Of a stretch of DNA of 64,000 bases, positions 28,051 to 42,210 are shown one piece after another; position 1 is the stretch's first letter, and each line of letters starts with the position of its first letter. A program made the position numbers and the translations under genes. The notes below the pieces were generated by a model that did no database searches, had not been told where the DNA came from, and saw only the letters and a list, made by a program, of their open reading frames with translations. The stretch is from Spirochaetota bacterium (GTDB lineage: Bacteria; Spirochaetota; Brachyspiria; Brachyspirales; JACRPF01), in contig JACRPF010000005.1 in the NCBI GenBank assembly GCA_016214035.1, positions 248,001 through 312,000 of the forward strand. Direction: 5' to 3'.

Positions 28051-28929
28051 TCAAGCTGCCGCCGTGCGCTTGTACACCGCTCCGAAATATGACAGCAGTT
28101 TGCGGATAAGCGTTGTTATGGAGAAAGCGCGCGCCAGTACGGACAAGGGAGCATGCTCCCTTGTCCGTACTGACGCGATGCTCACATCACATCCATCTGC
28201 GGAAGCAGTATGCTTGTCATCCGCAGGCGCGGCCTCGCGGTTCCCGAGCGTAGTCGAGGGAAGACCGCGCCTGCGTGCTTCATTCACCACGGCATAAGCA
28301 GCCGGAACATCACGTTTCATAACGTTCTCATACGCCGCGCGGATTGCTTTCCGGATGCGCGAGCAGATGCTCCGCACGGTGCCTTCCGGCTTGTGTACCG
28401 TTTCCGCGATTTCCGACGATGTATATACATCCTCATGCATCTGCAGTATATAGCGGGTGTCGGCGGAAAGTCCGTTGATGACTTCCTGCGCGGCTTCAAG
28501 TGCGGGATTGGAGGTATAGACAGAAGATGATGACGATTCAGAGCTGTCCAAACTCGTGTCGACGAGAAAATCGATGCGGAGCATATCGCTCCCGGTGGTT
28601 ACGGGTTCATCAAGCGATACTACTTTCGCTTCCTTTTCGCGGGCGGCGAGTTTGCGGAGATAGTCGTTACGGGTGTTGATGGCGATGACGTATATCCACA
28701 GGCGCATATTACCTTTTGCCGCGTCGAACCGGTCGATGGTGGTGATGACTTTCATCATAACGTCACAGGAAAGTTCTTCGGCGTCGGAGGCATCATTAAC
28801 CCAGCGGCTGAAAAGATGTTTGATGTAGGTGAAATAGCGGCTCTGGAAGAGGCGATAGCATTTCATGTTGTTCTGGCGGATACCGTTGATGAGTGTAGTG
28901 TCATCAAGTTGTGAATGTATAGTATTCAT
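28051..28929 (-). CDS. ECF-type RNA polymerase sigma factor with repeat-derived C-terminal tail
   Basis: 292 residues from ATG 28929 (ATG 28941 is four codons upstream). Region 2 spans about 10-95: CYRLFQSRYFTYIKHLF, DAEELSCDVMMKVI, GNMRLWIYVIAINTRNDYLR. A Ser/Thr-rich linker follows, then region 4 at about 140-205: INGLSADTRYILQMHEDVYTSSEIAETVHKPEGTV with the helix-turn-helix. The last 80 residues are not sigma-like. They are translated from two palindromic repeats, at 28222-28275 and 28135-28172. No anti-sigma gene is next to it. It is divergent from the gene at 29017, a possible target or regulator. Confidence 0.85.
   Translation of the reverse strand: MNTIHSQLDDTTLINGIRQNNMKCYRLFQSRYFTYIKHLFSRWVNDASDAEELSCDVMMKVITTIDRFDAAKGNMRLWIYVIAINTRNDYLRKLAAREKEAKVVSLDEPVTTGSDMLRIDFLVDTSLDSSESSSSSVYTSNPALEAAQEVINGLSADTRYILQMHEDVYTSSEIAETVHKPEGTVRSICSRIRKAIRAAYENVMKRDVPAAYAVVNEARRRGLPSTTLGNREAAPADDKHTASADGCDVSIASVRTREHAPLSVLARAFSITTLIRKLLSYFGAVYKRTAAA
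28135..28172. repeat. 38-bp perfect palindrome inside the sigma-factor gene
   Basis: Perfectly self-complementary around the central GCATGC (28151-28156), with arms CAGTACGGACAAGGGAGCA. After one mismatch it extends four more pairs each side. The inner arms GACAAGGGAGCA/TGCTCCCTTGTC are identical to the outer arms of the terminator at 51272. Confidence 0.8.
28222..28275. repeat. REP-like element inside the sigma-factor gene
   Basis: Outer arms CGCAGGCGCGG (28222-28232) and CCGCGCCTGCG (28265-28275); inner arms TTCCC/GGGAA around GAGCGTAGTCGA. A 24-bp core at 28239-28262 is identical to the centre of the element at 51272. Confidence 0.75.
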
Positions 28930-29016
28930 ATCAAACCCCATTCTGTATATTCTGCCGAGTGAAGCGCGCGTGATGATTTTTTACGAAATCTTACAAAATA
29001 TAACAGGAGGTGATTT

Positions 29017-29403
29017 ATGAAATCACTCAACGAAACGGAAAAGAGAGAGTTCGCGATGCGGATTCTCAACGTACTCACGACCAACGCTCAGGCGGTGAAA
29101 GCCGCGGGCGTAGACCCCTCGGGAAAAGCGGCGATGCTGAAAGTTCTCACGGATGAAGCGTTTGCCGCAGAGGATGCGCAGATCCGGATGGAGGCCGATT
29201 GCCGGGATGTAACCGCCCGCTCACGCGCCACCACGCAGACCGCCTATGCGGCGGCGTCGGGGGTGGTGGAACTCATCATCGGCACCATCGGAAGCGACAA
29301 GCAGCTCTCCCGCGAACTGCGCTCGCTCCGGAAAGCGATCACGCGCGGAACGGGAACCGAAAAAGTCCCCGCAGCCGCAAAACCCGAAAAGAAGACGGCG
29401 TAG
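29017..29403 (+). CDS. Small helical protein of unknown function
   Basis: 128 residues, mostly alpha-helical and charged (MKSLNETEKREFAMRILNVL ...), with a Lys/Ala/Pro-rich tail. It has no membrane segment, one Cys only and no recognised family. It has the strongest ribosome site in the window (AGGAGGTGATT, 5 bases before ATG) and a strong terminator 15 bp after its stop. It is therefore probably an abundant, monocistronic product. It is divergent from the ECF sigma factor 87 bp away; the shared intergenic region may carry the sigma factor's own target promoter. Confidence 0.75.
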   Translation: MKSLNETEKREFAMRILNVLTTNAQAVKAAGVDPSGKAAMLKVLTDEAFAAEDAQIRMEADCRDVTARSRATTQTAYAAASGVVELIIGTIGSDKQLSRELRSLRKAITRGTGTEKVPAAAKPEKKTA

Positions 29404-29418
29404 CGTGAACACCGGCTG

Positions 29419-29460
29419 AAAGGCCCGGACAGGAAGACGTTCCTGCCCGGGCCTTTCTTG
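29419..29460 (+). terminator. Rho-independent terminator after the 29017 gene
   Basis: 17-bp stem with one mismatch (AAAGGCCCGG... pairing with ...CCGGGCCTTT), GACG loop, then TTTCTT. Because the stem begins with AAA it may also work on the other strand. Confidence 0.85.
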
Positions 29461-29598
29461 TGCATTATTGTCGCTCTCGCGGTTGTTCGCCGCCTACGCC
29501 ATCCGGGCGGCGGCTCTTTCGGGCGCATCCATGCGTGTATTTCACTTGATATATCGTCATTTTACTCCTTTTGGGTTGCGGGATATGTCCCGCGTTAC

Positions 29599-30207
29599 GC
29601 CGTATGCTGCGATAATATTCCGGCGTACAGTATTATCAGGACCGTGTACTGGGTGCAGGAGCCGGTATGAGCTGTGCCTACACCAGTTTTTTGACGGTGC
29701 ACTCCGGTGCGCGCATGCGAACAACCCGTCGGATTACTGCAGCATCGCGCGTATGTACCCGCCGGAACGTCGTACAGACACAAAAATACAGTGTGCTCAT
29801 CGTAGAAGACAGCCGGAAAATCTTCCGGCCCTTCCGGATTACCGGGAATGTCTCCGCACGCTGTGTATACGCCGGCGCATGTTGCCGGCAGGCTTGCGCA
29901 CGTTCAACATATTCCAGCGTACAGACCTTGTACGTTCTCGCCGTTCGCTGCACCCATGTGCATGTACGACGTACGATGGGAGGTGCACCGCATATTCCAT
30001 CATACGCTGCGGACGAGACGGTGTACGCACCATGCGAGAAAGCGTATGTTGTACTCGAGCAGGCGTATGTTCTTTATACGCGCTCACCATCAACTGCATA
30101 CAGGTGCGTGTGCTGCGTATGCCGGTGCATGTATTGTACGAGCTGATGTATGGGTTGCGCGTTACAGCTTACGGACAGCATGAGCCGGTGTATGCTGAGC
30201 GTATGCT
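29599..30207. repeat. Array of 29 degenerate 21-bp units in unbroken register
   Basis: Cutting the DNA every 21 bp from 29599 lines up a recurring core near the start of each unit, roughly (C/A)CGGYGTAYG. Examples: CCGGCGTAC at 29620, ACCGTGTAC at 29641, CCAGCGTAC at 29914, AAGCGTATG at 30040, AGGCGTATG at 30061, GGTGTATGC at 30187. Individual units differ widely, but no insertion or deletion breaks the 21-bp phase over 609 bp. All six frames therefore show heptad-like patterns. The plus frame from TTG 29468 stays open to 30271 (267 codons, rich in Arg, Cys and Tyr), without a clear ribosome site. The gap 29457-30463 holds no other gene I can support. Confidence 0.7.
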
Positions 30208-30276
30208 GGAATATTTTTGTTGTTTTGGGCATTATGAAAAATGGAAATCATGCGTGATCATGTGCCGATAAGGTGC

Positions 30277-30308
30277 GATATGTCGCGCGCAGCAATTGTA
30301 CGTCACTG
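30277..30308. repeat. 32-bp repeat, copy 1 (upstream of a TTGACG promoter)
   Basis: Matches 42894-42925 at about 27 of 32 positions: GATATGTCGCG, then CAATTG, then GTCACTG. In both places a TTGACG promoter follows (30340 and 42943). Confidence 0.55.
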
Positions 30309-40632: not shown

Positions 40633-42210
40633 ATGAAAATGAATTTTTTACCGAGATTGGTGCTGGGATTTGCCTGCATGATCGTCATTTCACTTGTCGT
40701 GGGGACCATCGGCATCACGCAGATGAAACGAATAGACAATGCCGACACATTTCTTTATGAGAAGACCACCGCTCCGCTTGGATATGTGGTGACTATGGTA
40801 GATACATTTCAACAGGCGCACCGGTCAGTACGCGAGATGGCGTTTGCAAAATCGACGAAAGAGATAGATGAGCAGCTTGGGAAAGTGCAATCACTGGCAA
40901 TGGAATCTGCCAAGGTTGAAAAGCTCTATGAAACGACATTCATTGACGAGAACGACAGGAAATTGTACGCCGACTTCAGCGAATATAAAAAAGCGTATGT
41001 GGGGAACGTGATGAAATATGCAGGGCTTCTTAAGAGCGGAGAGACAAAGACCGCTGCCGCCGTATGGGATTCGGACGTTTCTCCATCGGCAGAGCGGGTG
41101 CACGACAAGATGAAAGAAATAGCAGCAGGTAACGTTGTCGCGGCGAAGGATGTGTCCGACAGCAACACAAAACTGGCGAATCTGTCGACGATCGTCATGA
41201 TAATTTCCATGATCGCCGGCTTCATACTCGCCGTCGTCCTTGGTGTCGTGATCGTTCGTTCCACGATGAGGCCGATAGAAGTGATCAGTCAGTCGGCCAA
41301 TAATGTCGCTTCGGGCAGTGAACAGCTCAGTTCTTCGGCGGAGGAACTGTCGCAGGGGGCAAGCGAACAGGCGGCGAGTGTGGAGGAAGTATCGGCCTCC
41401 GTTGAGGAGATGACGGCGACGATTCGTCAGAACACCGACAATGCGAGCCAGACAGAGAAGATCGCCAAGAAAAGCGCGTCGGACGCCAGGGACGGCGGCG
41501 AAGCGGTGAAACAGACGGTGAAAGCGATGAAAGAGATCGCCGACAAGGTGAGCATCATCCAGGAGATCGCGCGGCAGACGAACCTGCTGTCACTCAACGC
41601 CTCGATAGAAGCGGCGCGGGCGGGCGAGCACGGCAAAGGGTTTGCGGTGGTCGCGAGCGAAGTGCAGAAACTCGCCGACCGCAGCCAGAAAGCGGCCGGT
41701 GAGATAGGCGAATTGTCAAAATCGAGCGTCCTGGTCGCCGAACGCGCGGGGACCATGCTTGAAAAGCTCGTGCCCGACATCCAGAAAACAGCGGAACTGG
41801 TCGCCGAGATAAACGCGGCAAGCGGCGAACAGAACAACGGCGCGCAGCAGATTAACAATGCCGTACAGCAGCTGAACAGTGTCGTCCAGCAGAACGCATC
41901 GGGCGCTGAAGAAGTGGCTTCAACATCGGAAGAGCTCGCGTCTCAGGCTGTGCAGATGCGCGAGGCGATCACGTTCTTCACCAGCGACAAGACGAACCGT
42001 GCTGCAGTGATTGACCATGCGTCTAAGAAAAAGATATCCGTCCACGACAAACCGCTGTCACCCGTCCATCATAACGGACATGATACACAGGCAAAGCATA
42101 TTGAGATCAAGGAGACGGCGGGTGTTGCGGCGAAGAACAAGGCAAAAGGATTTGCATACGAACTGTCCAATCCGATAGACGCCGAAGATGAATCGTTCAA
42201 AAAGTATTGA
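40633..42210 (+). CDS. Methyl-accepting chemotaxis protein, four-helix-bundle sensor
   Basis: 525 residues. Membrane segment ~8-28, periplasmic four-helix bundle (4HB_MCP) ~30-185, membrane segment ~187-210, and then no clear HAMP domain before the signalling domain. The hairpin tip [36 protein letters not shown] is a standard MCP tip, with methylation-type helices on both sides ([20 protein letters not shown] and [17 protein letters not shown]). The tail ([13 protein letters not shown]) is not the CheR-binding pentapeptide NWETF. Ribosome site AAAGGAG. Confidence 0.93.

Follow-up and report, generated by a model that had tools for sequence, protein, structure and literature searches.

In the window, by which we mean the whole stretch of 64,000 nucleotides that was analysed, a gene for a small basic protein lies beside a divergent gene for a sigma-70-family factor and is followed in turn by a strong terminator, a dispersed multi-hairpin repeat, and a tandem array of degenerate 21-bp units (Table 1). 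The small protein is predicted by AlphaFold2 (mean pLDDT 84) to be entirely helical, with one helix of 58 residues and a disordered tail of Lys, Ala, and Pro; its family is basic throughout (pI 8.8–10.1), turned up in just four of the genomes sampled from the phylum, and gave no significant match in Pfam, NCBIfam, PHROG, the PDB sequences, or the PDB folds (Foldseek), nor any relative in the searched GTDB genomes, IMG/VR viral contigs, phages, or plasmids. A paralog of the sigma factor adjoins 9 of the 18 small-gene homologs of this genome and two more in G001, a genome from another genus of the same family, these paralogs (57–88% identical by tblastn) being found at L058, L059, L062, L069, L070, L071 (partial), L073, and L074, and in G001. 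The hairpin of the small-gene terminator is conserved upstream of the arrays L024, L029, and L034, and of L055 in G001.

Table 1. Features at the locus, with positions counted from the first nucleotide of the window.
Feature	Position	Strand	Basis or remark
Sigma-70-family factor, divergent from the small gene	28051..28941	-	Pfam Sigma70_r2 6.9e-11, Sigma70_r4_2 1e-06
Small gene, 128 aa, pI 9.6	29017..29403	+	18 homologs in its own genome, itself included
Terminator of the small gene, strong hairpin and then a T-run: GGCCCGGACAGGAA-GACG-TTCCTGCCCGGGCC TTTCTT	29422..29459	+	read directly
Dispersed multi-hairpin repeat of ~140 bp, between terminator and array	29461..29597	.	outside the array family
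Degenerate array of 21-bp, dyad-symmetric units, consensus CCGGYGTAYGNNSNNYRTANR	29615..30214	.	cyclic HMM 256 bits and lag-21 autocorrelation
First 41-bp double unit, register step -1	29914..29954	.	recurs in L017, L019, L029, L033, and L055 of G001
Second 41-bp double unit	30060..30100	.	146 bp past the first
Conserved array end: hairpin CCGGTGTATGC-TGA-GCGTATGCTGG, then AATATTTTTGTTGTTTT	30185..30226	+	pattern in 6 copies of the same genome; also in L034 and G001

The repeat of ~140 bp recurs some 20 times at other places in the genome, never with a 21-bp array behind it; the hairpins in other copies are GCGGTGCATCCGGCACCGC, GCGCATCCATGCGC, and GCGGGATATGTCCCGC, and the repeat, which is REP/BIME-like, often terminates at ...TGTCCCGCGCTA. 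Beyond the array, a repeat of ~48 bp (30241–30288; 87% identical at C18:327455 and present also at C1:51752) breaks the right flank common to other arrays.

No other 400-bp segment of the window scored as high at lag 21 as the array, where the identity at that lag was 0.400 (z = 8.1) against a maximum of 0.318 among 500 dinucleotide-preserving shuffles, with harmonics at 42, 63, and 84; the periodicity claimed in the initial annotation of this DNA thus outlives such shuffling. That annotation had also described a perfect register without a single insertion or deletion, which description is wrong in detail. A prominent lag of 125 (6 × 21 − 1) in the same autocorrelation hinted at an imperfect register, and a cyclic 21-state HMM, trained on the window array together with related arrays, found two double units of 41 bp in place of 42 bp, as well as a less certain shift near 29811–29852. 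The interval of 146 bp between the two steps is exactly equal in the window array, L017, L019, L033, and L055, and this superstructure is retained in the other genus along with the array end, a terminator-like match that constitutes the most conserved piece of the array. Many arrays of the window type terminate in a common GTATGCTGGAATATTTTTGTTGTTTT; in other genomes the array-end pattern gave only unrelated single matches, which we took as chance, plus one match in a viral contig. In 604 kb we counted just 5 occurrences of the motif TTGTTGTTTT, of which 3 are at 21-bp arrays; at L206 and L224 this rare motif lies within ~160 bp of an array.

The window array is old and is one of many. Its type comprises about 10 arrays, mostly in the same genome, where HMM and model searches recovered L017, L019, L020, L024, L029, L033, L034, and the more distant L063, the one in another genus being L055. 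By BLAST against the own genome (5.2 Mb, 22 contigs) long copies were found at C18:402495 and C1:133386 (~66–67% identity), and some relatives align without a gap across 300 bp at ~60–67% identity. Between the window and L034 the flanks are 77–87% identical and the arrays themselves cannot be aligned, though the same unit profile fits both. A four-unit array model (R1) run over 296 genomes of the phylum gave strong matches in only the own genome (G000) and G001, the match in G217 being a homogeneous PEYIEPE-like repeat that is probably coding. The 21-bp phase, whose conservation at homologous loci had been proposed as a check, is accordingly conserved, another genus included. A giant hairpin, or a MITE with terminal inverted repeats, was also considered and was rejected, being clear in only L034; the repeat in question was found only there and in one other place.

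Because 21 bp equal seven codons, the array might be a gene for a heptapeptide-repeat protein, an alternative put forward in the initial annotation, or else a pseudogene of one, with PVYVEHI as the natural frame or with the frame that is open from 29468. Unrelated coding repeats of equal period do exist, namely the one in G217 and the heptad coiled-coil repeats of a predicted methyl-accepting chemotaxis-type protein at 40633–42210, which also yield a lag-21 signal and can serve as a coding control for such scans. The six-frame ORFs, Pfam, and the substitutions by codon position nevertheless led us to reject a coding function. Between pairs of homologous arrays, we found no excess of substitutions in the third position—they were spread evenly in most pairs—and no synonymous excess in any frame, nonsynonymous changes dominating in each one; in the L019–L029 pair, for example, the three codon positions carried 19, 24, and 18 substitutions, with 10 synonymous versus 39 nonsynonymous in frame 0. 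The natural frame holds stops and is disrupted by the 41-bp steps, and the openness of the 267-codon frame follows from the unit itself (CGG-YGT-AYG-NNS-NNY-RTA-NRC), in which NNS alone can form a stop and the other six codon patterns cannot. Since the arrays, moreover, sit behind a terminator, we regard a heptapeptide-repeat gene as highly improbable.

To relate the arrays to the small gene, we measured the best lag (between 9 and 79) in the 900 bp on either side of each homolog. An array with a 21-bp period adjoins 16 of the 18 homologs in the genome, or 16 of the 17 testable ones (12 downstream and 4 upstream), L073 being outside the testable set because it runs off its contig; by comparison, among 400 segments of 900 bp drawn at random, no more than 1.75% had 21, 42, or 63 as the best lag. 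Downstream, the lag of 21, 42, or 63 was strong at L058, L059, L062, L064, L065, L069, L070, L071, and L074, while the window, L063, and L066 had window-type arrays recognised by the HMM with a weaker lag signal, that statistic being weaker for old arrays. The arrays of L060, L067, L068, and L072 lie upstream of the homolog, and L061 is the only testable homolog with no 21-bp-period array within 900 bp on either side. These arrays represent about 11 unrelated unit sequences—exemplified by GTTCACGGCCGAAGGCGCTGC (L059), GGCAACGAGACAGCTCGGCAA (L062), AGAAAATCATTTTCTTTGTTG (L071), and CCGCACGACCTTGCGGAAAGT (L070)—and we count some 11 independent families rather than 16 because the homologs or arrays are in part related (L071/L074, L067/L068, and the window type). 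Since the period beside the homologs of this one gene is always 21 bp while the unit sequences differ, the comparison suggests that what counts is less the sequence than the spacing, which equals two helical turns of the DNA; this outcome favours the earlier proposal of selection on geometry over two turns of B-DNA.

The same period prevailed when we scanned at large. Lags of 21, 42, or 63 were found at 16 of 20 sites in 864 kb of the 5.2-Mb genome, though half of the stretches scanned had been chosen near known arrays and at least one site (L204) is probably a coding coiled coil, for which reasons the 5 of 6 sites obtained in 604 kb chosen arbitrarily from the own genome are the fairer figure. 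In 400 kb of samples from other families no lag-21 site was found. The pairing of gene and array recurs in the second genus, at L138 and L144 of G001, and weakly in a second family, where four 21-bp units lie directly behind the single homolog of G142, with a signal at lag 42 (z = 5.4) that exceeds the 95% limit of the null but not the 99% limit. Certain arrays have no intact small gene nearby, these being L017, L019, L020, and L033 of the window type, together with C15/C16, L206, L214:5063, and L224. Arrays or short pairs of units with a 21-bp period were likewise noted without a recognisable small gene at L206:3441-3673, L214:5077-5215, L224:16749-16985, L133:1658-1711, and L132:1660-1761.

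Beyond their CGGYGTAYG core the units had been thought to share little, but in the HMM register the entire 21-bp profile proved to be its own reverse complement, most of the correlations between a column and its partner being 0.8–1.0, and the HMM gave a high score on the opposite strand of the array as well. The dyad axes of the window-type unit fall at S and at CC|GG, every 10.5 bp. For the window array alone, the symmetry was significant in the HMM register (p = 0.008) and invisible in the fixed register adopted earlier (p = 0.38); the independent arrays L033, L034, and L055 each gave p = 0.00025 against column shuffles, and the scores combined over 17 arrays gave p ~1e-11, and p = 3e-9 once the window type was left out. 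Dyad symmetry is thus common among degenerate arrays, but in the dyad test no significant palindromy was found in the nearly perfect, presumably young arrays L059, L060, L062, and C15/C16. The symmetry may therefore be acquired or retained after the expansion of an array, though mutation driven by hairpins could give the same result. Among closely related arrays, furthermore, columns of high information were substituted at 0.126 per site versus 0.216 for the others (p = 0.003), so that conserved columns evolve at ~0.6 of the rate of the rest. When the column information was taken only from other arrays, the correlation was marginal (Spearman -0.44, p = 0.047) and the two-group Fisher test was not significant (p = 0.12). 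Both the 10.5-bp axes and the slower columns lend further support to a constraint on geometry.

Complementarity of this kind would also be expected from a structured non-coding RNA, a plus-strand chain of hairpins stopping at the terminator-like end near 30185–30226. In favour of such a transcript, in 7 of 9 arrays folding is more favourable than in dinucleotide shuffles (z from -4 to -8 on the plus strand), the most conserved piece of the array resembles an intrinsic terminator, the axes of complementarity stand at the same places in the paralogs and in G001, and two-sided changes of base pairs number 13 versus 8 in the shuffles (6/500, from only 6 related sequences). Any dyad-symmetric array, however, folds well; L020 and L024 fold no better than their shuffles; the covariation term of RNAalifold was unfavourable (+3.9); no promoter-like site was found that would read the plus strand into the array; and the array yielded no Rfam match, none of the covariance models coming near its gathering threshold. 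The plus-strand excess of G-U pairs tracks base composition, and we consequently rejected that asymmetry as an indication of a plus-strand RNA. On balance, we judge an RNA of this kind unlikely.

The possibility that the arrays are decaying minisatellites deserves more weight, though we still incline against it. Slippage or unequal exchange would repeatedly create 21-bp arrays by the gene and functionless mutation would follow, the dyad symmetry arising from hairpin-prone units or from the correction of quasi-palindromes. The units are indeed tandem head-to-tail copies, and the young arrays are nearly perfect, of arbitrary sequence, not palindromic, and prone to break the assembly, three of them accounting for 6 of the 44 contig ends; in addition, L020 contains an exact internal duplication of 50 bp, and identical blocks are common to L017 and L020. 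Left unexplained, however, would be the constancy of a 21-bp period, or a multiple thereof, among unrelated sequences; the tracking of one gene family by the arrays; and the unequal conservation and slower evolution of columns placed by the dyad. Random slippage should produce a mixture of periods, which is what the control genomes showed, with no lag-21 site among them; here, in contrast, 16 of the 20 scanned sites and 16 of the 17 testable homologs had 21, 42, or 63 as their lag. The arrays that interrupt the assembly do so at C15-end/C16-start, C7-end/C12-start, and C12-end/C1-start, where the matching units suggest the contig orders C15-C16 and C7-C12-C1.

Because the pitch is fixed while the sequence is free, the units are dyad-symmetric, and the arrays are linked to one gene, we favour a role at the level of the DNA, and the array probably works in double-stranded form. 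The locus would be one copy of a module comprising the divergent sigma-70-family gene, the small-protein gene with its terminator, and the tandem array, in the last of which a degenerate inverted-repeat site would recur at every second turn of B-DNA, so that a dimeric or polymerising protein might bind in a cooperative manner along one helical face. As ligand, the neighbouring small protein would be the first to consider, each version of it having its own array. Arrays would originate by tandem duplication and then diverge, retaining pitch and dyad symmetry. A module of this composition, present in multiple copies and combining the sigma factor and the small basic helical protein with degenerate palindromic putative sites in helical phase, is our preferred reading, though we hold it tentatively and at rather less than even confidence. 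The more specific version, in which a chromosomal protein–DNA module pairs each copy of the small protein with its own palindromic array, pitch and dyad being selected while the sequence turns over, is unlikely by our estimate; the modules would then give the impression of co-evolution between protein and array, or of a protein that reads shape and phasing instead of sequence. Counting against the preferred reading are the young homogeneous arrays that are not significantly palindromic, the several arrays without an intact small gene, the marginal column-rate test, and the small protein itself, in which neither Pfam and the like nor Foldseek revealed a known DNA-binding domain.

As far as Pfam, NCBIfam, PHROG, PDB, and Rfam were searched, the earlier statement that no described element matches the array still holds, and in the part of the literature covered we found no description of such arrays. 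One likeness is to the iteron, centromere, and operator arrays of plasmids, among them RepA iterons, parS/parC-type arrays, and KfrA sites. Iterons are well-conserved direct repeats. In such plasmid systems short tandem sites, spaced by roughly two helical turns, accompany the gene for a small DNA-binding protein, and the arrays described here would follow a similar plan; the 21-bp pitch and the 10.5-bp dyad axes agree with that arrangement, the sites being putative. Unlike iterons, however, our arrays are degenerate, palindromic, and entirely different between copies of the module, and they lie on large contigs of 65–585 kb. The neighbours are not Rep or Par genes but a sigma factor and a small protein with no family match and no plasmid or phage match, and no Rep, ParA, or ParB was identified. 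REP/BIME extragenic palindromes (PMC3733652) are also numerous, dispersed, and non-coding, but REP is one sequence family throughout a genome and does not form 21-bp-pitched arrays of 5–30 units tied to one gene, whereas the unit sequences here are unrelated between arrays; the REP-like element of this locus is the ~140-bp repeat and not the array. Minisatellites or VNTRs likewise form head-to-tail arrays that expand by duplication and are in some instances nearly perfect, from which the present arrays differ in having a fixed period with unrelated sequences, in accompanying one gene family, and in retaining the dyad pattern when old. CRISPR and other guide arrays share the partly palindromic units arrayed next to a gene; our arrays, in contrast, have no spacers, a period of only 21 bp, and no identified cas-like gene.

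Non-coding elements are usually recognised by a conserved sequence, whereas what these arrays appear to conserve, across unrelated sequences tied to one gene family, is a distance equal to two turns of the helix. Should a protein read the arrays, the effects of helical phasing and of sequence recognition could be told apart on naturally occurring variants, and comparison of the paralogous modules would reveal how a protein changes jointly with its sites. Should the arrays be nothing more than minisatellites, the constant step of 21 bp by one gene would imply that some mechanism of duplication gauges DNA in helical turns. Elements of this kind escape searches by sequence similarity, but a lag scan detects them. 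Downstream of two of the arrays (L214:796-1317 and L058:387-905) we also observed a 173-aa protein, MKKIVINLTLPASAAL..., which is secreted or membrane-anchored, has no assigned function, and is 81% identical between the two copies.
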